Source: Alphaproteobacteria bacterium
GTDB lineage: Bacteria > Pseudomonadota > Alphaproteobacteria > Micropepsales > Micropepsaceae
Length of the DNA: 64,000 bases
Assembly (NCBI GenBank): GCA_017983635.1
Contig: JAGOBA010000012.1
Location: 62,001-126,000 of the forward strand
Reading direction: 5' to 3'
Shown here: positions 3,723 through 20,787 of the stretch, one piece after another
Layout of the letters: the number at the start of each line of letters is the position of its first letter
Numbering within the stretch: the first letter of the stretch is position 1
Translations under genes and position numbers: made by a program
The notes under the pieces: model-generated
What the model was told of the DNA's origin: nothing
Database searches by the model: none
What the model saw: only the letters and a program-made list of their open reading frames with translations

Positions 3723-5426
3723 ATGGCGGCGAAGAAGTCCCGCAGGATCGAAGCGGTCGCAAAGGCGCTCAACAGCATCTCCGAGGGCGCGGGCGTCAGG
3801 GCCGATGCCCTTCTTGCAATGCGCAAAGCCGTCGCACACTACAAAAAGGGCGAGTGGGGCCCCGCCGCCATCGCCGCCGCTGAAGCGGCCGACGCCGACG
3901 TCAAGTACGCCAGTGCCTATCACCTGCTGGCACTCGCCCTCGACAATCTGGGTCAGCGTCACAAAGCGTTCGAGATGTACGAACGCGCTCTCGCCCTCAA
4001 TCCGAACGATCCGGACCTCTATCTGAACGTCGGCACCGCAGCCTGGAGCCTACGCCTTTACGAGGGCGCCGAAAAGGCATTCCGCGCCTTCATCGAAATG
4101 CAGCCCGACAGCCCCAAAGGTTATAACAACCTTGCCGGCTGCCTGCGCGACATGGGCCGCATCGACGAAGCGATCGAGCTCACCCGCAACACCCTGTACC
4201 GTATGCCCGAGGCGGCGGAGCTCTGGAACACGCTCGGTACCATCATGGGCGAGCAGTCGGATTTCGACAACGCGATCACCTTCTATAAGGAGGCCCAGCG
4301 TCTCGAACCAACGATGGCGCGCGCCTTCCACAACATGGCGCACGCGCTGAACCATGTCGGGCCGCTCGAGCAAGCGATCGAGAACTACAATCGCGCCCTA
4401 AAGCTCTGCGAGAACGATCACGACCAGGCCGAAATCACCCACGCCCGCGGCCTCTGCTACGCTTCGATGGGCCGCCTAAAAGACGGCTGGCCGGACTACG
4501 AAGTCCGCCACACCCCAAGCTTCAGCCAAACAACCTACTTCGCCGTCGACGCCCGCCGTTGGGATGGAGAGGACCTGACCGGCCGCAAGCTGCTCGTCGC
4601 CGGCGAGCAAGGCCTCGGCGACGAAATCATGCTGGCGAGCCTCATCCCCGATCTCATCAAACGCGTCGGTCCCGCCGGCAAAGTCATGATCGCTTGCGAT
4701 CATCGCCTCGTCCCGCTGTTCCAGCGCTCGTTCCCGGATGCCCATGTCGGCATTGAGATGCACACCAAACACAACGCCAAGCCCGTCCGGGTCATCCCGT
4801 GGGCGAAAGGCGATCTCAAAGCGGACTTCTATACCCCGATGGGCGCGCCGCTGATGGCGCTGCGCCCGGCGGTCGACAGTTTCCCGCGCCAAGCCTTCGT
4901 GACGCCGGACCCGGCCCGCGTGCGCCACTGGCTGAACCGCCTCGACAGCCTGGGCCCCGGCCCGTATGTCGGCATCTGCTGGAAGTCGATGCTGCAAACC
5001 ACGCAGCGCAAGAAATTCTTCAGCGCGCTCGACGTTTGGAAACCGGTCCTCGAACAGACGGCGGTGAAGTTCGTCAACCTCCAATACGGCGACTGCAAGG
5101 CCGAGATCGCCGCCGCACGCGAACAGCACGGTATCGCGATCCACGACTTCGGCGACATCGACCTGAAGATGAACCTCGACGACAACGCCGCGCTCTGCGC
5201 AGCGCTTGACCTAGTCGTCTCCGCACCAACGGCCGCCGCAGCTCTCGCCGCCGCGACAGGCACCGAAACCTGGTTCCTAACTGCCGGCCGCGTTTGGCCG
5301 CAACTCGGCACCGATCACTACCCGTGGTACGCCAACACGCGCGTCCTAACCCCGGAAAAATTCGGCGACTGGACCACGCTTATGCGGCGCCTCGCCGCGG
5401 AACTTGACGCTTACGCGCACCGTTGA
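3723..5426 (+). CDS. TPR protein with glycosyltransferase-like C-terminus (FlmG-type)
   Basis: A 567-residue cytoplasmic protein. Residues about 35-260 form a run of tetratricopeptide repeats (e.g. AYHLLALALDNLGQRHKAF and YLNVGTAAWSLRLYEGAEKAF). Residues about 280-565 form a GT-B-like domain beginning WDGEDLTGRKLLVAGEQGLGDE and including VGICWKS and a late VVSAPTAAAALAAATGTETW segment typical of the donor-binding half. This is the layout of FlmG, the Caulobacter flagellin glycosyltransferase, whose TPR part recognises flagellin and whose GT part transfers a nonulosonic acid. Position beside flbT-flaF and two flagellins supports that role. AAGGAAC precedes the ATG. No sugar-synthesis genes are in the window. 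Confidence 0.75.
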   Translation: MAAKKSRRIEAVAKALNSISEGAGVRADALLAMRKAVAHYKKGEWGPAAIAAAEAADADVKYASAYHLLALALDNLGQRHKAFEMYERALALNPNDPDLYLNVGTAAWSLRLYEGAEKAFRAFIEMQPDSPKGYNNLAGCLRDMGRIDEAIELTRNTLYRMPEAAELWNTLGTIMGEQSDFDNAITFYKEAQRLEPTMARAFHNMAHALNHVGPLEQAIENYNRALKLCENDHDQAEITHARGLCYASMGRLKDGWPDYEVRHTPSFSQTTYFAVDARRWDGEDLTGRKLLVAGEQGLGDEIMLASLIPDLIKRVGPAGKVMIACDHRLVPLFQRSFPDAHVGIEMHTKHNAKPVRVIPWAKGDLKADFYTPMGAPLMALRPAVDSFPRQAFVTPDPARVRHWLNRLDSLGPGPYVGICWKSMLQTTQRKKFFSALDVWKPVLEQTAVKFVNLQYGDCKAEIAAAREQHGIAIHDFGDIDLKMNLDDNAALCAALDLVVSAPTAAAALAAATGTETWFLTAGRVWPQLGTDHYPWYANTRVLTPEKFGDWTTLMRRLAAELDAYAHR

Positions 5427-5514
5427 GCCAGTGCTTCACGCCGAAGTGAGCAACACACACGCTGAACGTACGCGTCATAGCCGGTAGTCTCGCGCCCAAC
5501 GTAAGGGCACAACC

Positions 5515-6390
5515 ATGAACCGACGCTTGACCAGACGTGGCGCACTGACGCTCGCCACCGCGGCCGCACTCGCACCGGCCGCGATAGCCGCACCGCTGGC
5601 GCGCCCCACTGTCGGTCTCGGCTCGTGGATCACATTCAACGTCGGCGATGACGCTGCGGCGCGAGAGTCCTGCACGAACGTCATTCGCGCTTTCTTTGCC
5701 GCTGGCGGGCGCCTGATCGACTCCTCGCCTATGTACGGCTCCTCGCAAGAAGTCATCGGCTACGGCCTCAAGCGCGCCGGCAATGCAAAAGCCTTATTCT
5801 CTGCAACCAAGGTCTGGATCTCGGGCGGCGCCAACGGCCGGGCACAGATCGAAGAGTCCCGGCGTCTCTGGGGCGTGCCGAAGTTTGACCTCCTGCAAGT
5901 CCACAACCTGCTCTCGTGGGAAGAACATCTGCCAACGCTTTTCGCGATGAAGGCGCAGGGCAAACTCGGCTACGTCGGTGTCACCACTTCTCATGGCCGC
6001 CGGCATGAAGACCTCGAACGCATTATGCGGAGCCAGCCAATCGACTTCATACAGATCACCTACAATGTCGCGAGCCGCGACGTCGAAAGTCGCATTCTAC
6101 CCCTCGCACGGGAACGCAACATCGCGGTCATCGTCAACCGCCCGTTCGAAGGTGGCGACTTGATCGACGCACTGAAGGGCCGCCCTCTGCCCGCCTTCGC
6201 CGGTGCGTTAGGCGCCAAGAGCTGGGCGCAGCTCTTGCTCAAGTTCATTCTCTCGCATCCCGCGGCGCCAAGCCCGATCCCAGCAACCACGCGTGTTGAC
6301 CACGCGCAAGAGAACGTTTCCGCCGCAAGCGGCCTCCTGCCCGATGCTGCAATGCGAGCCCGCATTTTGAGCGCGGTGGGCGGTCTGTGA
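5515..6390 (+). CDS. Exported aldo/keto reductase
   Basis: A 291-residue protein starting with a Tat-type signal (TRRGALTLATAAALAPAAIA, residues 5-24), so probably periplasmic. The mature part is an aldo/keto reductase barrel. The catalytic tetrad is visible as Asp and Tyr in LIDSSPMYGSS, Lys in SATKVWI and His in LLQVHNL. The usual NADPH-binding tail is poorly developed and the protein is shorter than most (about 320), so cofactor use is uncertain. Its stop codon overlaps the start of the next gene (TGATG), indicating co-translation with the DUF6064 protein. Substrate unknown. Confidence 0.85.
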   Translation: MNRRLTRRGALTLATAAALAPAAIAAPLARPTVGLGSWITFNVGDDAAARESCTNVIRAFFAAGGRLIDSSPMYGSSQEVIGYGLKRAGNAKALFSATKVWISGGANGRAQIEESRRLWGVPKFDLLQVHNLLSWEEHLPTLFAMKAQGKLGYVGVTTSHGRRHEDLERIMRSQPIDFIQITYNVASRDVESRILPLARERNIAVIVNRPFEGGDLIDALKGRPLPAFAGALGAKSWAQLLLKFILSHPAAPSPIPATTRVDHAQENVSAASGLLPDAAMRARILSAVGGL

Positions 6391-7061
6391 TGTCGGAGTG
6401 GTGGACCTATTCGCTCTCCGACTTCCTGCTGTTCTCCCCGCGCACCTATTATCGCCTGTTCGCGCTCTACAACGATGCGGTCTGGCCCGCGCACATCGCG
6501 GCTGCAGCGCTTGGCGCTTTCTGCCTCGTGCTAGCCCGCCGCAGCGGCGCACTCGGCACGCGAGCCGTTCTCGCGATCCTCGCCGCTCTTTGGTTTTGGA
6601 TCGCATGGGCCTTTCACGCCGAGCGCTTCACGACAATCAACTGGGCCGCGATCTACTACGCCTACGCATTTGCGCTGCAGGCTGCATTGCTGCTCTGGGT
6701 CGCTTTCGTTCGACCGCCCGATGAGGCACGCGCACCGTCATCCCGCATCGCCTTCGCCGTCACGCTATTCGCAATCCTTCTCCAACCCGCGATCGGCCAG
6801 TTCCTCGGTCGCGACTGGCATCAAGCGGAAGTCTTCGGCCTGACCCCAGATCCAACCGCTGTCGCGACCCTGGCACTCCTCGCAATGCAGGCACGCCCGC
6901 CGTGGTTGTTGACGATCATCCCCGCCCTTTGGTGCATCGTGACAGGCCTCACGCTGTGGACGATGAAGGCTCCCGACGCGTTGGTAACGCCTATCGCCGG
7001 CGCTCTGGCTCTTCTGGCAGCACTATGGAAAGCTGCGCCGGATGAAACCCGCCGACATTGA
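6390..7061 (+). CDS. DUF6064 family membrane protein
   Basis: About 223 residues with six predicted membrane helices. The N-terminus SEWWTYSLSDFLLFSPRTYY is characteristic of the DUF6064 family, which has no assigned function. The ATG at 6390 overlaps the reductase stop; a GTG one codon upstream is an alternative start. The end overlaps the YjbR-like gene by 20 bases, so three genes (5515-7395) probably form one operon. The pairing with a Tat-exported reductase hints at a shared envelope role, but this is inference. Confidence 0.8.
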   Translation: MSEWWTYSLSDFLLFSPRTYYRLFALYNDAVWPAHIAAAALGAFCLVLARRSGALGTRAVLAILAALWFWIAWAFHAERFTTINWAAIYYAYAFALQAALLLWVAFVRPPDEARAPSSRIAFAVTLFAILLQPAIGQFLGRDWHQAEVFGLTPDPTAVATLALLAMQARPPWLLTIIPALWCIVTGLTLWTMKAPDALVTPIAGALALLAALWKAAPDETRRH

Positions 7062-7395
7062 AAAATTTCTGCTCGCGCTACCCGCTGCGACACTCAGCAT
7101 CCAGTGGGGCAACGACCGCGTGTTTAAGGTCGGCGGCAAGATGTTCGCCGTCATGGGCCCGCACGACGGCGAATCGAAAAGCCTATCGTTCAAGACCTCG
7201 GACGATAGCTTTCGGATCCTGACCGAACTCCCCGGCATCAAGCCTGCTCCCTACCTCGCCCGAGCGCAGTGGGTCCAAATCGACGGGCCCGCACGCCTGA
7301 AGGCAAAGGAGCTGAAGGCCTATCTCGCCCGGGCGCATACGCTGGTCGCTGCCGGTCTCCCCAAGAAGACGCAGCGCGAACTAGGCCTCCTGTAG
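7042..7395 (+). CDS. MmcQ/YjbR family protein
   Basis: A 117-residue protein with the compact YjbR fold: IEKFLLALPAATLSIQWGND, KVGGKMFAVMGP, LSFKTSDDSFRIL and the late VQIDGP segment. Members are described as double-wing DNA-binding-like proteins, but their biological role is not established. The start lies 20 bases inside the preceding gene. It ends 84 bases before the MoxR gene. Confidence 0.85.
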   Translation: MKPADIEKFLLALPAATLSIQWGNDRVFKVGGKMFAVMGPHDGESKSLSFKTSDDSFRILTELPGIKPAPYLARAQWVQIDGPARLKAKELKAYLARAHTLVAAGLPKKTQRELGLL

Positions 7396-7479
7396 GCGGA
7401 GAACGGGTGCGCGCTTGCGAGCAGCCCACCAACCCCCTAGGTTCACCCCAACAGCCATTCACAACCGTCAGAGACACCC

Positions 7480-8328
7480 ATGAAGAAGTTCGAAGGCACC
7501 AGCAGCTACGTCGCGACCGACGATCTGCGTATTGCAGTCAACGCGGCGATCACGCTCGAGCGCCCGCTCCTCATCAAAGGGGAACCCGGCACCGGCAAGA
7601 CCGTGCTCGCGTTCGAGGTCGCGAAGGCGATCGGCGTGCCGATCATCCAATGGCACATCAAGTCCACGACAAAAGCCCAACAAGGCCTCTACGAATACGA
7701 CGCCGTCAGCCGCCTGCGCGACAGCCAACTCGGCGACGAGCGCGTGAAGGACATCAAGAACTACATCGCCAAAGGCAAACTCTGGGAAGCGTTCACGAAC
7801 GACCAGCGCCCGGTCCTTCTGATCGACGAAATCGACAAGGCCGACATCGAGTTCCCGAACGACCTTCTGCTCGAACTCGACCGCATGGAATTCTTCGTCT
7901 ACGAAACCGGTGAGACGATTAAGGCGAAGCAACGCCCAATCGTTATGATTACCTCGAACAACGAAAAAGAACTGCCGGACGCCTTCCTGCGCCGCTGCTT
8001 CTTCCACTACATCAAATTCCCCGACCGCGACACGATGACGAAGATCATCGACGTCCACTACCCGAAGATCATGGACAAGCTGGTCGGCGAGGCCCTGAAC
8101 ATCTTCTACCAAATCCGCGATGTCCCCGGCCTGAAGAAGAAACCGTCGACCAGCGAACTGCTCGACTGGCTAAAACTCCTGATGGCCGACGACATCACCG
8201 CCGAAACCCTACGCGAACGCGACCCGTCCAAACTCATCCCGCCCCTCCACGGCGCGCTCTTGAAGAACGAGCAGGACGTACACTTGTTTGAGCGGTTGGC
8301 GTTCTTGGCGCGGAGAGAAAGGAATTAG
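7480..8328 (+). CDS. MoxR-family AAA+ ATPase (CoxD-like)
   Basis: A 282-residue AAA+ ATPase. Walker A is GEPGTGKT (residues 35-42) and Walker B is LLIDEIDKAD (about 111-120), with sensor-1 Asn in MITSNNEKELPDAFLRRC and its arginine finger region. MoxR ATPases act as chaperones that insert cofactors or assemble complexes, together with a VWA protein. The VWA gene follows after three bases. CoxD, the maturation ATPase of CO dehydrogenase, belongs to this class, and a CoxL-like gene lies about 17 kb downstream, but no direct link is shown. Confidence 0.93.
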   Translation: MKKFEGTSSYVATDDLRIAVNAAITLERPLLIKGEPGTGKTVLAFEVAKAIGVPIIQWHIKSTTKAQQGLYEYDAVSRLRDSQLGDERVKDIKNYIAKGKLWEAFTNDQRPVLLIDEIDKADIEFPNDLLLELDRMEFFVYETGETIKAKQRPIVMITSNNEKELPDAFLRRCFFHYIKFPDRDTMTKIIDVHYPKIMDKLVGEALNIFYQIRDVPGLKKKPSTSELLDWLKLLMADDITAETLRERDPSKLIPPLHGALLKNEQDVHLFERLAFLARRERN

Positions 8329-8331
8329 TCC

Positions 8332-9507
8332 ATGTTCCTGAACTTCTTCCACGACCTTCGCCAGGCCAAGATCCCGGTGACCTTAAAGGAATACCTGGCC
8401 CTCATGGAGGGCTTGGACCGCAAAGTCATCGATATGAAGGTCGATGAGTTCTACTACCTCTCACGCACCGCGCTGGTGAAGGACGAGCGCAACCTCGACA
8501 AGTTCGACCGCGTCTTCGCGCACGCGTTCAAGGGGCTCGAAAACCTCGACCCGACCGACCTCGCGCAGATTCCGGAAGACTGGCTGAAGGCGCTCACCGA
8601 AAAATTCCTCTCCGAGGAGGAGAAGAAGCAGATCGAATCCCTCGGCGGCTGGGAAAAACTGATGGAGGAGCTGAAGAAGCGCCTCGAAGAACAGAAGAAG
8701 CGCCACGAGGGCGGCAACAAGATGATCGGCACCGGCGGCACCTCGCCGTTCGGCGCCTACGGCTACAATCCCGAAGGTATCCGCATGGGCCAAGACAAAG
8801 GCCGCCACGGCAAGGCGGTCAAAGTCTGGGACAAGCGCGAATACAAAAACCTCGACGACAGCGTCGAACTCGGCACCCGCAACATCAAGATCGCGCTACG
8901 CCGCCTGCGCAAATGGGCCCGCGAGGGCGCGCTCACCGAACTCGACCTGCCCGAAACAATCCGCCATACCGCGCATCAAGGCTATCTCGACCTCGTGATG
9001 CGGGCCGAGCGCCACAATAAGGTGAAGGTCCTGATCTTCTTCGACATCGGCGGCTCGATGGATGCGCATATCAAGCTCTGCGAGGAGCTGTTCTCCGCCG
9101 CGCGCACCGAATTCAAGCACATGGATTTCTTCTACTTCCACAATTGCCTGTATGAGAGCGTTTGGAAAGACAATCGCCGCCGTCACAACGAGAAGCAGCC
9201 GACCTGGGACGTGCTGCACAAATACCCGCACGACTACAAAGTCGTGATCGTGGGCGACGCAACGATGAGCCCCTACGAAATCACCTACCCCGGCGGCAGC
9301 GTCGAACACTGGAACGAAGAACCGGGCGCCGTCTGGCTCGAACGCCTGACCCGCATTTACGAACATGCGATCTGGCTGAACCCCGTCCCCGAACGCCACT
9401 GGGAATACACGCCCTCGATCCAAATCATGAAGCAAATCATGAGCGACCGCATGTACCCGCTAACGCTCGAAGGCCTCGACAAGGCGATGCGAGAGTTGAA
9501 CCGGTAA
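8332..9507 (+). CDS. VWA-domain protein, MoxR partner (CoxE-like)
   Basis: A 391-residue protein. Residues 1-130 form a helical, charged N-terminal part with a Glu/Lys-rich segment. A glycine-rich linker (GTGGTSPFGAYGYNPEG) follows. From about residue 225 there is a von Willebrand A domain with a MIDAS-like FFDIGGSMD (Asp and the second Ser of DxSxS kept, the first Ser replaced by Gly). VWA proteins of this class work with MoxR ATPases in metal insertion or complex assembly. The last 780 bases (from 8730) are duplicated in decayed form at 11864-12331. Confidence 0.92.
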   Translation: MFLNFFHDLRQAKIPVTLKEYLALMEGLDRKVIDMKVDEFYYLSRTALVKDERNLDKFDRVFAHAFKGLENLDPTDLAQIPEDWLKALTEKFLSEEEKKQIESLGGWEKLMEELKKRLEEQKKRHEGGNKMIGTGGTSPFGAYGYNPEGIRMGQDKGRHGKAVKVWDKREYKNLDDSVELGTRNIKIALRRLRKWAREGALTELDLPETIRHTAHQGYLDLVMRAERHNKVKVLIFFDIGGSMDAHIKLCEELFSAARTEFKHMDFFYFHNCLYESVWKDNRRRHNEKQPTWDVLHKYPHDYKVVIVGDATMSPYEITYPGGSVEHWNEEPGAVWLERLTRIYEHAIWLNPVPERHWEYTPSIQIMKQIMSDRMYPLTLEGLDKAMRELNR

Positions 9508-9557
9508 GTTGGCGATGCAGCCCAGCTTCCAAAGTGTTGGGCTCGGGACAAAAGTTA

Positions 9558-10356
9558 ATGAGACCGGGTGAGTTCTTTGGAAATCCAAAGAAAATCACCG
9601 TTCCGTCAGGAACTGCAGTTACCGCTGTCGCCATACCCGAGATGCGCCAGCACGAGCATGCGGATTGTCATTTTGTGTTCGTTACACGAGGACTGTATCA
9701 AACTTCTGCGGTTGGAAGCGCCGGAATTATCGGCGAAGGTCAAGCGGTGTTGCACTTTCCTGGCACTTGCCACGTCGACAAACTGATCGGAGAAGGTTCC
9801 TTTTCGGCATTGTCATTTTCCACCGAATTGTTGTCCTCCGCGAGTAAGCCGACCAATTTGGCGCAGAAGAATAATTGGTTTCTCGTGAATGATGCCTCAA
9901 CAGGCACTGCTTCAGCGAGCTGATCGAGAACTCCGATTCTTCGATCCAACTTCCTACATCGCAATTGAAAGCATTATGCTCGAACTGCTCGCTGGGATTT
10001 GCAGAACCCCAGAGCACCGTACTTGTGCAACCAAGCCGGTGTGGCTCACCAAAAGCTGCTTTCGAATTCGCGAACAACTCGAGTTCCTCCCGTCGGTATC
10101 CGAACTGGCTCGCCAGGCTGGCGTTCACCCGGTCTATTACGCGCGCTCTTTTCGCGCTCATTTGGGACTCTCGCCGGGCGCCTATGTTCGGCTTGAAAGA
10201 GCAAAGCGAACGGCAGATCTTCTCGCCAAGAGCAAGTTAACCCTCGCTCAGATTGCACTGGCTTGCGGTTATGGAGATCAACCCACCTTTTCCAAAGGCT
10301 TTAAGCGTGTCGTTGGTGTTCCTCCTGGAGCCTTTCGTCAAGAATGGCGAAAATAA
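9558..10356 (+). pseudogene. AraC-family regulator split by a frameshift
   Basis: The N-terminal half (ATG 9558 to TGA 9923, 121 residues) is a cupin-like sensor domain (HEHADCHFVFVTRG, AVLHFPGTCHVDKLIG). The C-terminal half continues in another frame (open from 9889 to 10356) and holds an intact AraC DNA-binding domain with both helix-turn-helix units (PSVSELARQAGVHPVYYARSF and LTLAQIALACGYGDQPTFSKGF). The frame must change between 9889 and 9921 (skip of one base). It may be a true pseudogene, a sequencing error or two overlapping genes. It precedes the S41-like gene and could have been its regulator. Confidence 0.7.
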
Positions 10357-10436
10357 AAGTTACATTTGGACAAGATCGCCTGTCGAAGTTGGGTTAGTTT
10401 CCCCCCGATCATGAGTTCTTTGCAGGAGCCCTTGAA

Positions 10437-11822
10437 ATGCGCCAAATCATTCTGATCGTCGCGATAACGCTCTCCACACTAAGTTTTTCACTGAATTCTC
10501 ACGCGGCAGATGGGTTGCCTTTTGAAAGACTGTCAGAGGAACAACGCGTTTCAGATCTCAGGTTTCTCGCGGCCCAAATAACAACTCAACACCCGGCGCC
10601 TTTCCATAGAAACTCCGCAGACACCTGGAAGCGACGAGTCTCAGAGTTGGAATCGAATTTAGCGTCGCTCGATGCTTCAGGATTCTTTTTTCGTCTGCAG
10701 TCAATAGCGGCACTCGCCGACGACATTCACACCAGCGTATTTCCCATATCCGATCACGGGATTCTGACAACTACTTACCCTATTCGCTTGGGGCATTTCG
10801 AAGGGGGCGTTTTCATCAGAGCGGCCCGACAAGATCATGCGGCTATATTGAATGCGCAAGTCTTGCAGATTAATGGAATTGACGTCGGTGAGGTTGTGAG
10901 ACGTGCAACCGATGTTAGCCCTGGAAATTCGCGTCTCGCAAGGTCGAACGCACCTCTTGCTTATCTTCTGACGCCAGATTTCTACAAATATATTGGATCG
11001 AGTTCGGGCGGAGCGGATGCATCGTTCACAGTACGAGACGTGTCTGGTGCAATCAAAACGGCGACGCTTAAACCAGAGAATGTCAGTTTACTAACAGCTT
11101 ATGAATCTGGAAGTGTTACCGGTTGGAGCATGCCACAGGGTTGGGTCTCTTCGATTGGGGTAGCTCTGAATCCAGCAGTACCACTTTATGGTCAACGCGA
11201 CAGAATGGCGATACTTATGCCAATGCCTGATCGGCAGACGTTGGTCATTCAAATCAACCAACCCCAGCCTGATGAGCGCAACACAATCATGTATTTTCTT
11301 TCAGATCTTTTGAAGCATGTCGCCGACCACAAATACAAAAAAGTAGTGGTTGACCTAAGAGGCAATGAAGGTGGCTGGTATTCGCTCACCCAACCTCTAG
11401 CAGGACTTTTGTCCACCTTGGAATTAGCCAAAGGCGTGGAGCAAATCTGCGTTTTGATCGGTCGAGATACAGCTTCTGCTGGCGTGGTCCTGGCCGCCCA
11501 AATTGAAATGCAAACCAATGCCATTTTTATTGGTGAGGAAACGGGATCTGGCCCAAATTTTTACGGAACATATAAGCCTCGCGCCCTTCCAAATTCAGGA
11601 TTTTTCTTTCGAATCTCGAAGGAGCGAATTGTAACTTCTCTGCCTGCTGACTCGCGCACGAGCATTCATCCAGATCTTTACGTGATAGAGTCATTGCAAT
11701 CTCTTGCTGCTGGGCGAGATAAGGCGCTGGAAGTCGCGCTATCTTTGGCGCCAACGGCGCAGAATCCATTTCCTTGGTACGAGCGGTGGTCCAGACCGAG
11801 TCAAAGAATCCGAACTCAGTGA
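10437..11822 (+). CDS. Secreted S41-like peptidase family protein
   Basis: A 461-residue protein with a Sec signal peptide (hydrophobic residues 4-23, cleavage after SHA). The C-terminal half has S41 (C-terminal processing peptidase) features: VVVDLRGNEGG near residues 302-312 and LIGRDTASAGVVLA near 340-353, where the Ser of TASAG fits the nucleophile position. The N-terminal 250 residues lack a clear PDZ domain, although LQINGIDVGEVV near 142 resembles one strand of it. This layout is seen in proteins annotated as S41 family of unknown substrate. Composition is AT-richer than its neighbours. Confidence 0.75.
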   Translation: MRQIILIVAITLSTLSFSLNSHAADGLPFERLSEEQRVSDLRFLAAQITTQHPAPFHRNSADTWKRRVSELESNLASLDASGFFFRLQSIAALADDIHTSVFPISDHGILTTTYPIRLGHFEGGVFIRAARQDHAAILNAQVLQINGIDVGEVVRRATDVSPGNSRLARSNAPLAYLLTPDFYKYIGSSSGGADASFTVRDVSGAIKTATLKPENVSLLTAYESGSVTGWSMPQGWVSSIGVALNPAVPLYGQRDRMAILMPMPDRQTLVIQINQPQPDERNTIMYFLSDLLKHVADHKYKKVVVDLRGNEGGWYSLTQPLAGLLSTLELAKGVEQICVLIGRDTASAGVVLAAQIEMQTNAIFIGEETGSGPNFYGTYKPRALPNSGFFFRISKERIVTSLPADSRTSIHPDLYVIESLQSLAAGRDKALEVALSLAPTAQNPFPWYERWSRPSQRIRTQ

Positions 11823-11863
11823 CTTTTGATGTCGGGAACTCGGGGCGACAAAATGCACTGGCT

Positions 11864-12331
11864 CACCGGCGGCACCTCGCCGTTCGGTGCCTACGGCTAC
11901 AATCCCGAAGGCATCCGCATGGGCCAAGACAAAGGCCGCCACGGCAAGGCGGTCAAAGTCTGGGACAAACGCGAATACAAAAACCTCGACGACAGCGTCG
12001 AACTCTTCACCCGCAACATCAAGATCGCGTTACGCTGCCTGCGCAAATGGGCCCGCGAAGGTGCGCTCATCGAACTGGACCTGCCGGGAACGATCCGCCA
12101 TGAACCACCTATCCGGGCGGCAGCGTCGAACACTGGAACGAAGAACCCGGCGCCGTCTGGCTCGAACGCCTGACCCGCATCTACGAACACGCAATCTGGC
12201 TGAACCCCGTGCCCGAACGCCACTGGGAATACACGCCCTCGATCCAAATCATGAAGCAAATCATGAGCGACCGCATGTACCCGCTCACGCTCGAGGGTTT
12301 GGACAAGGCGATGCGAGAGTTGAACCGGTAG
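11864..12331 (+). pseudogene. Decayed second copy of the VWA gene 3' part
   Basis: Bases 11864-12101 align without gaps to 8730-8967 (about 14 mismatches in 238). Bases 12106-12331 align to 9282-9507, up to the stop codon. Between them 310 bases are missing; that is not a multiple of three and removes the MIDAS motif, so the frame is broken. Many differences are synonymous, but several change residues (Gly-Thr to Phe-Thr, Arg to Cys, Thr to Ile), as expected once selection is lost. The start and first 400 bases of the gene are absent. It lies 6 bases from the convergent citrate synthase gene. Confidence 0.92.
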
Positions 12332-12337
12332 GCCTCC

Positions 12338-13543
12338 CTACTCCAACGCATACTCCGCGCGCGGGCGGATCAGGTTGCCGCTCGTACGCTGCTCGAACGC
12401 ATGCGCGATCCAGCCGACCGACCGGCCCATCGCGAACAGCGCGAGGGCCGCACCTTGGGGCAAGTCGAAGCCGCGCTCGAGCGCCAGCAAACCAAAGTCG
12501 ACATTGGGCTCCACACCCGCCATCGATCGCCCGGCCTGCAGCGTCGCCACCATTGTCGCGTCGAGCTTCACGGCGCAGACCAACTCCGCTCCGCGCGGAT
12601 CCGCGTCGCGATAGACCGAATTGCCGAAGCCTGGAATCGTCTCGCCGCGGCTGAGCCGTGCGGCCACGGCTCCCACCGCGTCACGGGTCGCGTCGACCTC
12701 GGCAAGCAGTGCGCGCAACCGCGCCGTCGCGCCGCCGTGCTTCGGCCCGCTCATCGCCGTCAGCCCCGCTATCACGCAATTGGTAAGACCCGCACCGGTC
12801 GACGCCACGACCCTGACCGCAAAAGTCGACGCGTTCAACTCATGGTCCGCAAGCAGCACCAGCGCCCGCCGAATGTGCTCCGCCGCCTTCGGCCGCCGCC
12901 ACGCCACGCTGACCGCGCGATGGATCGGCCCTTGGTATGCGGTTTCGATTCCGGCAATAGCGGCGACCAACGCAGCAATCAATCGCGCCGCAGTCTGAAA
13001 CGCGTGCGGACCGGGCTTCCCCGCCCCCGGCACCTCCTGATCCGCTAGCAGAGAGAGCAGCAGGCTGCCGCGCGCCGTTGCACTCGCAGGCGCGCAGGTC
13101 GAAACGCTCGCACACCAACCGTTGATATCGCGCGGATCGAAGTGAACGGCGGCGAAAGGGTCCTCTGTCGTGTCCCACAACAGTCGCGCCGCCTCTTCCA
13201 GCGTCGCCTTGCGCGACAATGCAACCGCCTCCCGATCCCGGTAGAAGCAACGATCGTCCTCAAAATGCGTGATCCGCGACTTGAGCACCGGCAAGCCGTA
13301 GTCGAGTGCCGTGGCCGCGGCGGTTCGAGGCCGGCGCGTCCGACGCCGGCGGTCGATCAGCGCCATGATGTCGGCCGCCGAATAGAGACACGCCTTCGGT
13401 TCGTGCGGATGCGGCACCGAACGGATCAAGCCGCGACTGACGTAAACATAGAGCGTGGCGCGCGTGATGCTAAGCGCACGCGTTGCAGCCGCAGCATCAA
13501 GCAGCGCCCCTCGCTCGATCTTCCGCTGCCGCCCGGCGCTCAT
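12338..13543 (-). CDS. Citrate synthase-family protein with N-terminal helix-turn-helix
   Basis: A 401-residue fusion. Residues about 10-70 form a MerR-like DNA-binding segment (AATRALSITRATLYVYVSRG, then LYSAADIMALIDRR). Residues 80-400 are a citrate/2-methylcitrate synthase core, with catalytic motifs LADHELNASTFAVRV (His), SGPKHGGA (His), PNVDFGL (Asp) and the terminal LIRPRAEY. The core is a little shorter than housekeeping citrate synthase. It may be an enzyme, or a regulator that senses acyl-CoA or oxaloacetate. It is monocistronic and converges on the VWA pseudogene. Confidence 0.88.
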   Translation of the reverse strand: MSAGRQRKIERGALLDAAAATRALSITRATLYVYVSRGLIRSVPHPHEPKACLYSAADIMALIDRRRRTRRPRTAAATALDYGLPVLKSRITHFEDDRCFYRDREAVALSRKATLEEAARLLWDTTEDPFAAVHFDPRDINGWCASVSTCAPASATARGSLLLSLLADQEVPGAGKPGPHAFQTAARLIAALVAAIAGIETAYQGPIHRAVSVAWRRPKAAEHIRRALVLLADHELNASTFAVRVVASTGAGLTNCVIAGLTAMSGPKHGGATARLRALLAEVDATRDAVGAVAARLSRGETIPGFGNSVYRDADPRGAELVCAVKLDATMVATLQAGRSMAGVEPNVDFGLLALERGFDLPQGAALALFAMGRSVGWIAHAFEQRTSGNLIRPRAEYALE

Positions 13544-13638
13544 GTTAACACGTTGATTTAAGATTGACGCTCACCGGGCCAACCTCTCATGTTTTCACCC
13601 GCAGCGGAAAGCAGAAACCGCGATGGGAGAGCCAACCG

Positions 13639-14889
13639 ATGCTCCGAACTTTGTTGCTGACCGTGCTCGCGCTAGTCGCCTGGGCTGCATTTGTGGTTAC
13701 CGGAACGCTCGAAGGTTGGTGGCGTCAACCGCTGGCGCCGTTTGGCAATACGAACGCGTTCCGCGCCGCGGCGATCGCGAAAATCGACCAAGAGTACAAA
13801 GGCAATGTGGCGTTCGCGCTGCTTGAAAACGGCCACATCGCCGCCACCCATTTCGTATCGGCCGGCAAGCCCGTCGACGGCGACAGCCGCTTCCAAGTTG
13901 CCTCCATGAGCAAGTGGATCACCGCCTGGGGCGTGATGACGCTTGTGGAAGCCGGAAAGCTCGACCTCGACAAGCCGGTTTCCACCTACCTCACCCGCTG
14001 GAGACTCCCGCCGAGCCAATTCGACAACAACGGCGTCACCGTCCGCCGGCTGCTCAGCCATACGGCCGGACTAACCGACGGGCTCGGCTATGCCGGCTTC
14101 AAGCCCGGCACTCAGGTCCAGACGTTGGAGGACTCGCTCACGCATACCGCCGACGCCTCGTCGGGACACGACGGCCGCGTGCGCGTCGGGATCGCGCCCG
14201 GCACTGAGTTCAAGTACTCCGGCGGCGGCTACACGTTGCTTCAGCTGCTCATCGAAGAAGTCTCCGGCCAATCCTTCAACGACTATATGAAAGCGGCCGT
14301 ACTCAACCCGCTCGGCATGACGCGCTCGACCTTTGTGTTGGACGATGAAGCGGACGTAGCCGAGTTCTTCGATGAACGCGGACAGCCCGCTCCGCACTAC
14401 CGCTTCACCGCGCGAGCAGCCGCCTCACTCTACACAACGACGACGGACATGACGCGCTTTCTTCAGGCGCACCTTAAAGGCACGAGTGGCGAACCGCCCG
14501 GACGCGGCGCGCTGCAGCCGCAAACGCTTCTCGACATGCGCCGGCCGCACGCGTCTCAGTTCGGTGCCGATATATGGGGCCTGGGTACGATCCTCTTCGC
14601 GCCCAACAAGACCGGTGGATTCGTCATCGGCCACGACGGCGACAACGCACCCGCCATCAACACCGCAGCCCGCCTAGATCCCGCGACCGGCGACGGCATC
14701 GTGATACTCGAGACCGGCAATCCCCTGCTCGCAACCAGAATTGCAAGCGAGTGGGTCTTCTGGAATGTCGGCAAGGTCGACTTGCTGCTGTTCCTGATGG
14801 AGATTGAGGGCTTGCTGACGACGCTAGCGATCGGTTGCCTGGCGATCCTTTTCGCCGCGCTGTTCTTCGGCTGGCGTCTCCGGCGCTAG
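13639..14889 (+). CDS. Membrane-anchored serine hydrolase (class C beta-lactamase family)
   Basis: A 416-residue protein from the ATG at 13639, chosen because GGGAGAG lies 9-14 bases upstream; longer frames lack a good site. One N-terminal helix (residues 3-20) and a C-terminal helix (about 385-412) bracket a periplasmic domain. The SxxK nucleophile motif is ASMSKWIT near residue 93, followed by the YSGGGYTLLQ (Tyr motif) segment and a late GHDGDN in place of HTG. This is the esterase/D-alanyl peptidase-like beta-lactamase family, usually not antibiotic-degrading. Substrate unknown. Confidence 0.88.
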   Translation: MLRTLLLTVLALVAWAAFVVTGTLEGWWRQPLAPFGNTNAFRAAAIAKIDQEYKGNVAFALLENGHIAATHFVSAGKPVDGDSRFQVASMSKWITAWGVMTLVEAGKLDLDKPVSTYLTRWRLPPSQFDNNGVTVRRLLSHTAGLTDGLGYAGFKPGTQVQTLEDSLTHTADASSGHDGRVRVGIAPGTEFKYSGGGYTLLQLLIEEVSGQSFNDYMKAAVLNPLGMTRSTFVLDDEADVAEFFDERGQPAPHYRFTARAAASLYTTTTDMTRFLQAHLKGTSGEPPGRGALQPQTLLDMRRPHASQFGADIWGLGTILFAPNKTGGFVIGHDGDNAPAINTAARLDPATGDGIVILETGNPLLATRIASEWVFWNVGKVDLLLFLMEIEGLLTTLAIGCLAILFAALFFGWRLRR

Positions 14890-14892
14890 CCC

Positions 14893-15237
14893 CTACTCCG
14901 CCGCCTTACCGCCAAACAAGCTCCGGAACATGAGCCCACCGACCCACAGGATCAGCGTCAACACCACGACCCGCGTGAATAGAGTCATAAGCGCCAGCGC
15001 AATCGCCGTGTCGCCAACGAGGATCGCAAACAACGCCGACGGCTGACCGTAGCCCAGCGTCTCGTTCGCCGCTCCCATCACGAAGTACTTGAGACTGCCG
15101 GCCGCCTCAATGAAACCGTTCACCCATTCCGGCGTGAACCACACCATGAGCCCCAGTACCAAAAACGACATGAAGAACGAGACGATGCTGCGCCACGTCT
15201 GCCAAAGAAAATGACTCAAGCCCATGGTAAACCCCAA
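14893..15237 (-). CDS. Small hypothetical membrane protein
   Basis: A 114-residue protein with about three membrane helices (residues 17-36, a weaker one near 48-60, and 68-106 probably as two passes), ending in a short basic tail. No family was recognised. The start could also be the Met four codons later (MGLSHFLWQTW). It converges on the serine hydrolase with three bases between stops. A 185-base gap without a gene separates it from the TetR gene. Confidence 0.6.
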   Translation of the reverse strand: MGFTMGLSHFLWQTWRSIVSFFMSFLVLGLMVWFTPEWVNGFIEAAGSLKYFVMGAANETLGYGQPSALFAILVGDTAIALALMTLFTRVVVLTLILWVGGLMFRSLFGGKAAE

Positions 15238-15422
15238 TAGTCGAACTTCGATCCGATGCTCCGCGTGCGACAGCGCCGAGTCAAGGCGACCCTAGCGCCC
15301 GATCCGGCAGCAACCCTACCGGTTCATAGACGCGACGCGCAAAAGCCCCACCTTGCCTGTGCCCGCGCAGTCACGCGCCCTGTATGATCGCAAGCACGTG
15401 GGTCCCGGTTCGATCAGCCCGT

Positions 15423-16088
15423 TCACTCCGCTGCCGCCCGCGCCTGCCGCCGGGCCACCACGGCCTTGCCGGTCAGGTAGCCGACCAGCATGCGCGTCAG
15501 TTCATCCGCCAGCGCACCCGATTTCAGATCGTGCAGCCGCTCCGTCACCGCATTATGCACGATCGCCTCGACCGCACGTGTCAGCATGTATACCGCAAGG
15601 TCGAGGTCGGCGATCGCTAGCTCGGCACGCCGCACTTCCAGCACGGCCAGCACGCGCGCCGCTGCACGTTTCGAAAAGTCGCCCTGCCAATCAAGCTTGC
15701 CCAGCCGCGGCACCTCTTCCGACAACACGCGGTGCAACGCCGGATCGATCAGATGCGCTTGCACATTGTGCTCGATCGCGGCGCGTACCACCTCCGCTAA
15801 CGGCACCTTCTTCGCATCCTCCGCCATCTTATCGATCCCGGCTTCTAGATCGCTCTTATGCTGGCGCATCAACTCGCCAAGCAGCGCCTCCTTGTTCGGA
15901 AAATACTGATAGAGCGAACCGATGCTCACCCCCGCCCGCTCCGCCACGCGGTTCGTCGTGAAGGCGTCATAACCGTGCTTGACCAGAATGTGAGCCGCCG
16001 CCGCGATGATCGCGTCCACCGTCGCGCGCGAGCGGTCCTGCTCCGGCCTTTTCCGCGGTATTGCCGCCTTGCGCTTCGCCCCAGCCAT
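15423..16088 (-). CDS. TetR-family transcriptional regulator
   Basis: A 221-residue regulator. Residues 15-62 form the TetR DNA-binding domain (helix-turn-helix RVAERAGVSIGSLYQYFPNKEALL). The C-terminal 150 residues are the ligand/dimerisation part, with no recognisable ligand signature. It diverges from the ferredoxin gene across an 84-base gap that contains two palindromes (16116-16129 and 16137-16150), very likely its operators, so it probably represses both itself and the ferredoxin-methyltransferase unit. Confidence 0.93.
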   Translation of the reverse strand: MAGAKRKAAIPRKRPEQDRSRATVDAIIAAAAHILVKHGYDAFTTNRVAERAGVSIGSLYQYFPNKEALLGELMRQHKSDLEAGIDKMAEDAKKVPLAEVVRAAIEHNVQAHLIDPALHRVLSEEVPRLGKLDWQGDFSKRAAARVLAVLEVRRAELAIADLDLAVYMLTRAVEAIVHNAVTERLHDLKSGALADELTRMLVGYLTGKAVVARRQARAAAE

Positions 16089-16111
16089 CGGTCACCCTCA
16101 TGCGAGTATGA

Positions 16112-16154
16112 AATCTGAGCAAACGCTCATATAAAGCGAGCATTAGCTCAGATT
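16112..16154. promoter_or_regulatory. Putative double TetR operator
   Basis: Two 14-base palindromes with GAGC-N4-GCTC cores, TGAGCAAACGCTCA (16116-16129) and CGAGCATTAGCTCA (16137-16150), lie 21 bases apart, centre to centre. They sit inside a larger perfect 9-bp inverted repeat (16112-16120 with 16146-16154). Two helical turns of spacing fit binding of two TetR dimers between the divergent genes. Confidence 0.75.
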
Positions 16155-16172
16155 GGCCGAAAGGGCAAGCCG

Positions 16173-16475
16173 ATGACCGCAACCGACGCGAACTGCAAGC
16201 AACCGCCGAAGGTCGTCGCCCCGGTAATCAACACCTTCAAATGCGAGGGCGCCGGCGACTGTGCGGAGGTCTGCCCGTACGACGTCTTCGAGTTGCGCAA
16301 ACTTACTAAGCCGGAACTCAAGGCTCTGCCGCTCGGCCCCTGGATCAAAGTTCTTGCGCACGGCGGAAAACAAGCGTCCGTCGTCAATCCCGACGCCTGC
16401 CACGCATGCGGACTCTGCGTAACGGCCTGTCCCGAAAAGGCCATCCGCCTCACTCGATTGGAGCAACGCACATGA
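16173..16475 (+). CDS. Ferredoxin, 2 x 4Fe-4S type
   Basis: A 100-residue protein with two cysteine clusters, CEGAGDCAEVCPYDVF (residues 25-40) and CHACGLCVTACPEKAI (residues 75-90), each ending in the CP of bacterial ferredoxins. The first cluster has an extra residue between the first two cysteines (CxxxxxC). The roughly 35-residue insertion between clusters also occurs in alphaproteobacterial small ferredoxins. It is divergent from the TetR gene and overlaps the next methyltransferase (ATGA), so it supplies electrons to, or is co-regulated with, that pathway. Confidence 0.9.
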   Translation: MTATDANCKQPPKVVAPVINTFKCEGAGDCAEVCPYDVFELRKLTKPELKALPLGPWIKVLAHGGKQASVVNPDACHACGLCVTACPEKAIRLTRLEQRT

Positions 16476-17161
16476 ACATGCACATCGCGACACAGGACCG
16501 TGGTCTTGACGACGCAAGAGTTTCATCAACGCTGAAGAAACTCCACGCGCGCGCAAAGGGCGACCGCTGGATCTTCCTGCGCGCCGCGCCATCGGCGATT
16601 GCGACAACGCTGGCAGGGCGCAACGTTTTCGCTGCGGTCGAACCGCATTTGAAGAACGCTTACATCCCTGTCGATCATGACCAGGGCAAAATGCTCTTCA
16701 TCACCGCAAAAGCGATTCGTGCGCAAACGATCGTCGAGTTCGGAACCTCCTTCGGAATCTCAACGATCTATCTCGGCGCAGCTGCGCGTGCGAACAATGG
16801 TCGCGTCATCGGCACCGAATGCGAACCCGCAAAGGTTAAAGCTGCGCGTGCAAATGTCGCGGACGCAGGTCTCGCCCAATTCGTGGACATTCTTGAAGGC
16901 GATGCGATGAAAACGTTGGCATCGCTCGACGCAACGATCGATTTCTTGCTGCTCGACGGCTGGAAAGACATCTATCTTCCAATGATAAAGATGTTGACGC
17001 CCAAAATGCGCGCAGGCGCGATCGTACTTGCTGACAATATTTTCACTTTCAAAAAAACGCTGCGCCCGTACGTTGCGCACATGCAAGACCGCGCCAACGG
17101 ATTCGAATCCGTTACACTGCCGCTCGGTCACGGAATGGAATACTCGGTCCGCTTGACGTGA
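16472..17161 (+). CDS. SAM-dependent O-methyltransferase-like protein
   Basis: A 229-residue protein from the ATG at 16472, which overlaps the ferredoxin stop. The Rossmann methyltransferase motifs are IVEFGTSFGISTIYLG (motif I), VIGTECEPAKVKAARAN (motif II) and DFLLLDGWKDIYLPMI with GAIVLADNIF (motif IV region). These match the O-methyltransferase family 3/CcoAOMT group, in which LLDG/D and ADN bind metal and a catechol-like substrate. The composition is somewhat AT-richer than its surroundings. Probably part of the TetR-controlled unit; substrate not known. Confidence 0.85.
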   Translation: MNMHIATQDRGLDDARVSSTLKKLHARAKGDRWIFLRAAPSAIATTLAGRNVFAAVEPHLKNAYIPVDHDQGKMLFITAKAIRAQTIVEFGTSFGISTIYLGAAARANNGRVIGTECEPAKVKAARANVADAGLAQFVDILEGDAMKTLASLDATIDFLLLDGWKDIYLPMIKMLTPKMRAGAIVLADNIFTFKKTLRPYVAHMQDRANGFESVTLPLGHGMEYSVRLT

Positions 17162-17267
17162 TCCGAGTCACAGACGCGGTTCCTCTGCGTCATCTATTCC
17201 ATGGACGTTGAATCGGACGATGCTCATCATTACATCCGGGATAGAGCCCGGCTGGAGAGAACCGGCC

Positions 17268-17924
17268 ATGTACAGTCGAAGTTACGTGCCTGCGTTGGGC
17301 GATCATCGCCTTTCGCCTTTCTATGACGCTACGGTCGCGCTGATGACGTGCGAGCGCACGTGGCGTCGCGCCTTCGTTAAGCAAATTGCGCCCGAACCGC
17401 GCGACGTCATTCTCGACGTCGGCTGCGGTACCGGAACGCTCGCAATCCTCTTGAAGCGCGAATGCCCGGGCGCCTCGGTTTACGGTACGGACCCCGACCC
17501 CGATATCCTGTCGCGGGCGGAACTGAAGGCGCGCGACGCCGACGTTCTGGTGCATTTCAGCCAAGGCTACGCGCAGGAAACCGCAGCGGCGGCCTCGGGT
17601 ATTCGTCCGAACAAGATCGTCTCAAGCCTTGTGCTGCATCAGGTGCCGCTCGCAGGTAAGCGCGACGCGATCCTAAGCGCTTTCGCGGGCTTGCGCGCGG
17701 GCGGCGAATTGCACATCGCCGACTACGGCGAACAACGCTCGCCGCTGATGCGTCTTGCCTTCCGCCAAGTGCAATCGATCGATGGCTTCAAAACGACCCA
17801 GCCCAACGCCGATGGCGCGTTGCCCGGCATGATCGAGGAGGCTGGCTTCGTCGACATCGAAGAAACAGTGATCATCCCGACGCCGACGGGCTCGATCTCG
17901 CTCTACCGCGCGCGCCGGCCTTAA
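17268..17924 (+). CDS. Class I SAM-dependent methyltransferase
   Basis: About 218 residues from the ATG at 17268, preferred because GGAGAG sits 9-14 bases before it, whereas the upstream TTG has no site. Motif I is ILDVGCGTGTLAILL, followed by YGTDPDPDILSRA (acidic loop) and SLVLHQVP (post-II motif). This is the UbiE/COQ5-like Methyltransf_11/25 group. It follows the O-methyltransferase after about 106 bases and may or may not belong to the TetR unit. Its end overlaps the convergent YiiX-like gene by four bases. Confidence 0.88.
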   Translation: MYSRSYVPALGDHRLSPFYDATVALMTCERTWRRAFVKQIAPEPRDVILDVGCGTGTLAILLKRECPGASVYGTDPDPDILSRAELKARDADVLVHFSQGYAQETAAAASGIRPNKIVSSLVLHQVPLAGKRDAILSAFAGLRAGGELHIADYGEQRSPLMRLAFRQVQSIDGFKTTQPNADGALPGMIEEAGFVDIEETVIIPTPTGSISLYRARRP

Positions 17925-18649
17925 GGCGCCGGCGGCGCCTCTTTCGGCCGCGAGAAGGCAAAGCTCAGCTCCCTCGCCTTCGTCTCATAGATTTTGGTGA
18001 CATGCGCGTCGGCGACGATGCTCGCCGGCGTGATCACCTCTTGCTTGACCACCACTGTCCAGCACTGCTCGGCGTCGAGGTTGCGTCGCGAACAATCCTC
18101 GTTCGACGCCCAGACGCGCGAGAACTGCGAGCGCACCATTGCCAAGTCACTCGTGACCTTGCCGAGCTTCTGAACTCGGCCGAGATCGAACCCGACGTCG
18201 CTATAGGCGAGCCGCACAAGTTCGCTCGAATAGAGCGCATCCCAACTGCGCCGCAAGAACATGTCGTTAGGCTTGCCCAGCTGGCGCCGTGCCGCCGCGA
18301 CCACCTTCGCCCGTTGTTCGTCGTTCAATGCCGCAACGCGATAGACGGAGAACATGCCGTCCTTGCCGCGCTTCAGGAACGAGCTGAGCGGCGTAACCGT
18401 AACCTTGTCGGCCGCTTCGATGACCACCGGCCCCTCGGTGCCAACCTCGACAATGCCGATATGCGTCATCCCACTGCCGTCGGCGGCGAACACCGGCAAG
18501 GTATCGCCGACCTTCGCGTTCTGCACGACCAAGTCGCCACTCTTCCACTCGACCGGGTCACGCACGGTTGTCGCATACGAAATCAGATACGCAGCAAGCA
18601 CGATGGCAAACAACGCGCTGCCCAACGTAATCGCGACCCACTGCTTCAT
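17921..18649 (-). CDS. YiiX/YebB-like NlpC/P60-related protein lacking the usual Cys
   Basis: A 242-residue protein with an N-terminal membrane anchor (residues 5-27) and a permuted papain-like domain. GDLVVQ, then GMTHIGIVEV (His motif) and VVIEA precede ALYSSELVRLAY. In the YiiX family this last motif normally reads YCSELV with the catalytic Cys; here Ser (codon TCG) occupies that position. Either activity is lost or a Ser nucleophile is used. The C-terminal 80 residues are extended. It lies 80 bases downstream of a methyltransferase on the same strand. Confidence 0.75.
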   Translation of the reverse strand: MKQWVAITLGSALFAIVLAAYLISYATTVRDPVEWKSGDLVVQNAKVGDTLPVFAADGSGMTHIGIVEVGTEGPVVIEAADKVTVTPLSSFLKRGKDGMFSVYRVAALNDEQRAKVVAAARRQLGKPNDMFLRRSWDALYSSELVRLAYSDVGFDLGRVQKLGKVTSDLAMVRSQFSRVWASNEDCSRRNLDAEQCWTVVVKQEVITPASIVADAHVTKIYETKARELSFAFSRPKEAPPAP

Positions 18650-18729
18650 GGCACAAAACCCCCGTAACGCGGGATCAACCTCGCACGCACGGCGTAAAGG
18701 CCCGGGTAAGGAGTACGCTTAACGAAAGC

Positions 18730-19344
18730 CTACTTGGCGCTGCCCCAATAGTTGAAACCGGCAAACCGCGGCGTCGCCGGCAGGTACATCGTCTCCATTT
18801 TCTCGATCTCAAACCCGCCCTCGCGGATCAGATCGGGAATAGGCCGCCCCACATGGCAACCGCCGCCGATCACTTTCCAGATCGGCGTGATCCGCTCCTG
18901 CCACTTCTGGACGCTCAGATCGGGCGCCTTGCCGTGCTCGCAGAAGATCAGCCGCCCGCCCGGCTTCAACACCCGCCGCATGCCCTTCAGCGCGCGAACG
19001 ACCTCCGGAATCGTACACAGCGTATAGGTCACGAGAACCGTATCCGCCGCCTTGTCCGGCAACGGAATCTCCTCAGCCTTCAGGTCCAGAAACTCGAGAC
19101 TGAACTTGATGTCCTTGGCCCGCTTCAGCGCTCGCTCGCGCATCTCAGCCGACGGCTCAAGCCCCCAAACGTGGCTCACCTTTGCGGGGTTGTAGTGCGC
19201 AAGATTCTGCCCCGCACCGATCCCAATCTCAAGCACGCGGCCTTCGGCCAACGGCACGACCTTCTTACGCTGATAGGTGATCGGCTTGGCGCTCATCGCC
19301 GTGTCGAGCAGCCACGGCAGAATGCGGCGTTCGTAAAAACCCAT
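18730..19344 (-). CDS. Class I SAM-dependent methyltransferase (phospholipid methyltransferase-like)
   Basis: 204 residues from the ATG at 19344 (MGFYERRILPWLLD); longer frames upstream cross a terminator and look non-coding. Motif I is VLEIGIGAGQNLAHY, followed by WGLEPSAEM and VLVTYTLCTIPEV. The GxGxGxN pattern and the C-terminal GGCHVGRPIPDLI match small bacterial methyltransferases of the METTL7/PmtA-like group. Monocistronic or upstream of the YiiX-like gene. Substrate not determined. Confidence 0.85.
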   Translation of the reverse strand: MGFYERRILPWLLDTAMSAKPITYQRKKVVPLAEGRVLEIGIGAGQNLAHYNPAKVSHVWGLEPSAEMRERALKRAKDIKFSLEFLDLKAEEIPLPDKAADTVLVTYTLCTIPEVVRALKGMRRVLKPGGRLIFCEHGKAPDLSVQKWQERITPIWKVIGGGCHVGRPIPDLIREGGFEIEKMETMYLPATPRFAGFNYWGSAK

Positions 19345-19378
19345 GTGATGGCCTCGTTTCGCTTCGCCATCACATAGC

Positions 19379-19416
19379 ACAAAAAAGAAGCCGCTGACGG
19401 ACGACCCACCAGCGGC
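19379..19416 (-). terminator. Rho-independent terminator after the EAL gene
   Basis: A 7-bp perfect stem (19390-19396 GCCGCTG with 19410-19416 CAGCGGC) is followed on the minus strand by TTC and a run of six T (A run at 19381-19386). It lies 32 bases after the EAL-domain gene stop and before the methyltransferase start, so it separates the two units. Confidence 0.85.
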
Positions 19417-19447
19417 ATCAAGTCTTCCCGGAGACAACACCCCGCTG

Positions 19448-20671: not shown

Positions 20672-20787
20672 ATCTCAAAACCTCTGTCATTCTGTCCGTC
20701 CGGTTTAACCCACGACTCTTTAAGGCAGCCTCCAGCGCGGCCGTCGCATTTGAATTTCTAAGGTTTGAAACAAAGCTGAGAGCATCG

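Follow-up and report, generated by a model that had tools for sequence, protein, structure and literature searches.

The window (the whole 64,000-nucleotide stretch of DNA analysed) lies at C32:62001-126000 in a genome of 4.59 Mb in 34 contigs, which has Caulobacterales/Parvibaculales-like organisms and alphaproteobacterial MAGs as its relatives. The locus consists of a MoxR-type ATPase gene followed after 3 bp by its partner, an intact VWA (CoxE-like) gene, then a low-GC insert, a displaced piece of the VWA 3' end, and a citrate synthase family gene with an accompanying hydrolase (Table 1). Across the family, the gap between MoxR and VWA can be as small as 3 bp or as large as several kb. Elsewhere in the window, towards its left end (597-2406), lies a pair of diverged direct repeats (68-76%, spacing 1160) that are likely tandem paralogues.

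Table 1. Features of the VWA locus, in window coordinates
Feature	Position	Strand	Basis
MoxR-type AAA+ ATPase, VWA partner gene	7480..8328	+	PF00004/PF07728; orthologues occur beside VWA in relatives, in many cases separated from it by further genes
Intact VWA (CoxE-like) gene, copy A	8332..9507	+	PF05762 (1e-9); full-length matches in congeners, 93-99% protein identity
Duplicated part of VWA, nt 399-1176	8730..9507	+	Sequence comparison of the copies
Low-GC cargo insert	9508..11863	.	Missing at the equivalent place in G004, G010 and G007
AraC-type regulator, N-terminal half	9558..9923	+	ORF table; frame differs from that of the HTH half; no Pfam match on its own
AraC-type regulator, C-terminal HTH half	9889..10356	+	PF12833 (1.1e-21)
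Secreted S41-like protein	10437..11822	+	PF03572 (8.7e-10)
Copy B, left piece of the displaced VWA 3' end (VWA nt 399-636)	11864..12101	+	94.1% identity
Copy B, right piece of the displaced VWA 3' end (VWA nt 948-1176, to TAG)	12103..12331	+	94.3% identity
Citrate synthase family gene, right flank	12338..13543	-	PF00285 (9.9e-54); same order in G004, G007 and G010
Serine beta-lactamase-like hydrolase, accompanies citrate synthase	13639..14889	+	PF00144 (1.2e-48)
Small membrane protein, right anchor of the genus-wide variable interval	14893..15237	-	Collinear in congeners

Self-comparison revealed two pairs of direct repeats, 8730-8967/11864-12101 and 9279-9506/12103-12330, each 94% identical, and these VWA pairs are the only long direct repeats near the insert. 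They bear out the preliminary description, in which the VWA 3' end was said to recur at 11864-12331 with about 94% identity and about 310 nt missing: the fragment joins VWA nt 399-636 to nt 948-1176, lacks the ~310 nt between them and is 94% identical over 468 nt. The copies remain alike up to and including the third stop-codon base (TAA for the intact gene, TAG for the fragment), again as described, and the fragment's right half no longer lies in frame. A search of the whole genome for additional VWA-derived DNA found it only at 11864-12331 (E values down to 1e-101). From the stop codon of the fragment to that of citrate synthase there are 6 bp.

The insert measures ~2.36 kb and its GC content falls to ~0.48-0.53 over 9500-11750 vs 0.58-0.65 in the surroundings, with Pfam matches to AraC and S41 only, so that the reported lower-GC DNA with an AraC regulator and an S41-like protein was recovered with one refinement. 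The two halves of the AraC gene lie in different frames, so that it is probably broken, as a pseudogene or through an assembly indel. The absence of transposase and integrase genes also held, as no transposase, integrase or recombinase ORF was among the ORFs listed for 5000-16000. The best match of the S41-like protein among 100 relatives was 28% identical, and within the sparse sampling of these relatives, 385 genomes of the class and plasmids we found neither a close relative of it (matches of 23-35% only) nor a donor in which VWA is joined to AraC-S41. The exotic look thus appears confined to the cargo and does not extend to the donor VWA, and a functional link between VWA and the cargo that was kept is improbable.

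Comparison with congeners established an empty site. The preliminary description had proposed looking in close relatives for the order MoxR-VWA-citrate synthase without the segment; in G004 and G010, VWA directly adjoins citrate synthase with a stop-to-stop gap of 5-6 bp, and the alignment passes straight from one gene to the other. Given that the gap between the fragment and citrate synthase is the same 6 bp, the fragment stands in the position of the resident VWA 3' end. The earlier view of the fragment as resident debris beside citrate synthase is to this extent supported, while the roles of the two copies are not separable by tree. Farther out, the interval from VWA to 14893 holds other genes, without citrate synthase and hydrolase, in G005, G001, G002 and G009. 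The cargo found there among congeners comprises citrate synthase with hydrolase, a PIN-type toxin-antitoxin-like set, TPR with MBL and amidohydrolase genes, and an NTF2-like or 148-aa gene (gene names of the last-listed sets were taken from reading the sequence). These differing contents indicate a variable interval between conserved anchors.

Remnants of VWA are present in this interval in other congeners as well. The order in G007 is VWA-citrate synthase-hydrolase, a shrunken VWA piece, a PadR regulator, a nitrilase/acyltransferase-like gene and a second VWA piece; after the latter there is an apparent remnant of the hydrolase 3' end (L034, oriented 4470-6990). G010 probably carries VWA debris too, judging from a short VWA 3'-end remnant past the hydrolase that none of 2000 shuffles equalled (E 0.002). 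Because of this debris in G007 and G010, citrate synthase and the hydrolase may themselves have arrived together by the same one-sided route. Among 80 further alphaproteobacterial loci, clear VWA debris was found in G007 only. In G002 (L046, C16), MoxR is followed by a VWA paralogue, and the usual VWA is found on a different contig; the VWA-like N-terminus next to MoxR was considered as possible debris and rejected, since it belongs to this 50% identical paralogue. On phages, the sole VWA match was 51%, in two Acinetobacter phage records.

To tell whether the copies are duplicates or xenologues, a point raised in the preliminary description, we compared them codon by codon in the VWA frame. 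Copies A and B differ in 25 of 154 codons, 20 differences being synonymous and 5 non-synonymous (dS 0.22, dN 0.02), and dS between copy A and G004, the nearest sampled species, is 0.26. The synonymous bias is present also in the now out-of-frame right half of the fragment. In simulations of neutral decay that held the observed number and type of changes, 6.6 synonymous to 18.9 non-synonymous differences were expected, and none of 5000 runs came near the observed 20:5. This excess indicates that A and B diverged under purifying selection, as working genes in different lineages, and were joined later. The copies are therefore separate functional alleles and not near-identical, as a recent tandem duplication would have left them. 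The VWA tree resolves less: A and B are grouped weakly (80/75), and a grouping of A with G004 is not rejected (p-AU 0.235), so that resident and donor copies cannot be told apart.

These data bear directly on a duplication in place, by which the VWA 3' end would have been copied in tandem or as a segment, the downstream copy would have decayed, and an independent insertion would have separated the two. The weak sister grouping and the high identity (94%) fit such an origin, but the codon pattern, with a ratio of 20:5 against about 7:19 for neutral decay, rejects it, and it requires an extra, separate insertion event; we regard it as very unlikely.

We consider it probable instead that the locus arose by one-sided additive homologous recombination between two haplotypes of the variable interval downstream of VWA. 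DNA of a congeneric strain would have brought a VWA gene, or at least its last ~780 nt, followed by the AraC and S41 cargo, and would have recombined on one side inside the resident VWA, the presumed anchor. No long homology would have guided the joining of the other side, which would have come about through homology-facilitated illegitimate recombination (HFIR) of a linear fragment or through a single crossover of a fragment that had recircularised; both routes would yield the same product. The outcome would be a full-length VWA that is probably a chimera, followed by the cargo and then by the former VWA 3' end, left next to citrate synthase; this 3' end would since have suffered a deletion of ~310 nt and a loss of frame. 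The mirror event, in which VWA3'-citrate synthase arrived at a resident VWA-AraC-S41, would be equally possible; the identity of the resident copy, the form of the DNA and the joining chemistry are what we infer here. The sharp end of likeness at the stop codon is accounted for where the neighbours of donor and recipient differed from the stop onward, as those of VWA orthologues do. Upstream of the fragment, homology and microhomology are at chance level (370 of 2000 shuffles were as good) and the junction is old. ComEC, DprA and Ku are encoded in the genome, the first two also in most control genomes; they permit uptake and end joining and do not prove either. The empty site and the codon pattern thus agree with the original proposal of additive recombination with foreign DNA carrying a related VWA gene, qualified in that the VWA donor was probably congeneric and not distant, the copies being grouped weakly and their dS lying slightly below that to G004.

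Next, each predicted gene in 2.39 Mb (52%) of the genome was compared with its own 10 kb flanks, using a home-made gene finder trained on this genome. This survey revealed a recurrence that had gone unseen in the first reading: the pattern of intact gene, cargo and 3' fragment occurs at seven places, VWA and six more. The latter are an acyl-CoA synthetase gene (C8; 255 nt fragment, 100% identity), DnaJ (C10; 177 nt, 97%, cupin cargo), a SpeD-like decarboxylase gene (C24; ~210 nt, 86%), an alpha/beta hydrolase gene (C29; 199 nt, 91%, CPCC-protein cargo), a PyrD-like gene (C17; 51 nt, 82%) and an aminotransferase gene (C21; 207 nt, 68%, GIY-YIG-like cargo), names lacking a Pfam match having been read from the sequence. 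All seven fragments lack the 5' part of the gene but retain its 3' end as far as the stop, and the kinds of cargo are unrelated across loci (AraC and S41, cupin, CPCC protein, TPR and AraC). Differences between copies were mostly synonymous at C29 (13 synonymous to 4 non-synonymous) and C10 (4:1). Other arrangements were met only twice: as a mirror case with a 5' fragment upstream (C21 205905-206792), and as a 3' fragment that precedes its own gene (C29 5048-5722). In the mirror case, which extends over C21 205905-209226, the gene is D-amino-acid aminotransferase-like, and 99 nt of its 5' end recur upstream, past a cargo gene.

An empty site was found for C8, where the joined flanks match G005 over 1-698 of 700 and G009 as two collinear segments; the join at C29 or C10 was not spanned by any relative. 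Downstream at C8, a second repeat (18917-19092/20884-21059, 100% over 176 nt) interleaves with the first, which looks like two haplotypes joined in series. The interleaved 100% repeats, at 15827-21059 (L171), surround TPR, AraC and S41-like genes. Identity of 100% ending at the stop codon is less obvious under one-sided recombination, and later gene conversion is a possibility. In control loci totalling 1.46 Mb, from other genera and some congeners, we found no downstream 3' fragment of >100 nt and one of 34 nt, a contrast with the genome that is suggestive, given the home-made gene finder and the short control loci.

The recurrence weighs on two further explanations. By the first, a mobile element whose integrase targeted VWA would have restored the gene with its own copy of the 3' end, as in island attachment within a gene's 3' end, and the integrase would since have been lost. 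The topology matches exactly, with a restored gene, cargo and a displaced 3' end, and the pattern recurs in the genome. Nevertheless, the insert holds no integrase or recombinase ORF, and the arms of 780, 255, 199 and 177 nt far exceed att cores and vary in length and gene by locus; moreover, the cargo types are unrelated between loci and the VWA arm is a diverged allele. No integrase has so far been found at VWA in relatives, and we judge this the least probable of the explanations, highly improbable as it stands. By the second, a full second VWA, a xenologue that came with the cargo by another route, was later cut at its 5' end and in its middle, without any special one-sided event. The ~310 nt internal deletion makes a 5' deletion possible too, and old debris at other loci is eroded; yet none of the relatives has two full VWA genes at this locus, an arrangement that the preliminary description would have counted against itself, and random erosion is not expected to leave seven of seven fragments without a 5' part and with the 3' end to the stop. 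We hold it to be unlikely, if a little less so than duplication in place.

One-sided additive recombination is itself already known experimentally, and the part of interest is its recurrence at non-toxin genes. In an E. coli assay, 56 of 60 clones were single-crossover products with duplications of 109-950 bp, true HFIR being rarer (PMC3240628). The partial locus duplication in that work has the arrangement seen here, comprising an intact side of the gene, foreign DNA and a copy truncated at its 5' end, with the duplications here spanning 177-780 bp; it is, however, an experimental plasmid system, whereas the copies here are natural, fixed, decayed and found at several genes. HFIR has been proposed for the serial displacement of effector ends in Vibrio (PMC5361080) and for dimorphic loci (PMC2884548). 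As these two papers cite it (de Vries & Wackernagel 2002; Prudhomme 2002; Meier & Wackernagel 2003), HFIR likewise anchors one side of the incoming DNA by homology and joins the other illegitimately, but its textbook outcome is insertion with a deletion in the recipient and 3-10 bp of microhomology, whereas in the present case the anchor gene is partly retained and no microhomology is evident. Rhs C-terminal displacement and T6SS orphan immunity arrays (PMC2935791, PMC5361080) resemble the present loci in that a module enters by a conserved upstream gene, the old 3' end is shifted downstream and serial orphan 3' pieces are left. Those systems displace polymorphic toxin ends under selection, whereas here the anchor is a whole conserved non-toxin gene and the debris is dead. 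The minimal mobile elements of Neisseria (Saunders & Snyder 2002), as defined in PMC3898611, are strain-variable cassettes between two conserved genes without mobility genes, a description that the VWA-to-14893 interval fits. By that definition they swap by two-sided homologous recombination without anchor debris; here, in contrast, cargo was added, and VWA debris is present in the window and in G007.

Together, the data suggest that additive one-sided recombination supplies accessory genes in this organism, with seven loci in half a genome. We propose, tentatively and at somewhat less than even confidence, that the genus adds small cassettes behind housekeeping genes by a recurrent one-sided route, in which the anchor is always regenerated and the old 3' end is left as a datable scar. 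The 3' bias could be explained by selection, as an insert behind a gene would spare the gene's promoter. If the proposal is true, the scars would document, across the whole genome, genes gained additively without mobile elements and with a strong 3' bias (seven cases vs one 5' case). For most small genomic insertions no mechanism can be seen; a displaced anchor 3' end with mostly synonymous differences marks the merger of alleles from two lineages and gives its direction and rough age, and such additive one-sided events would be countable in other genomes by a simple scan.
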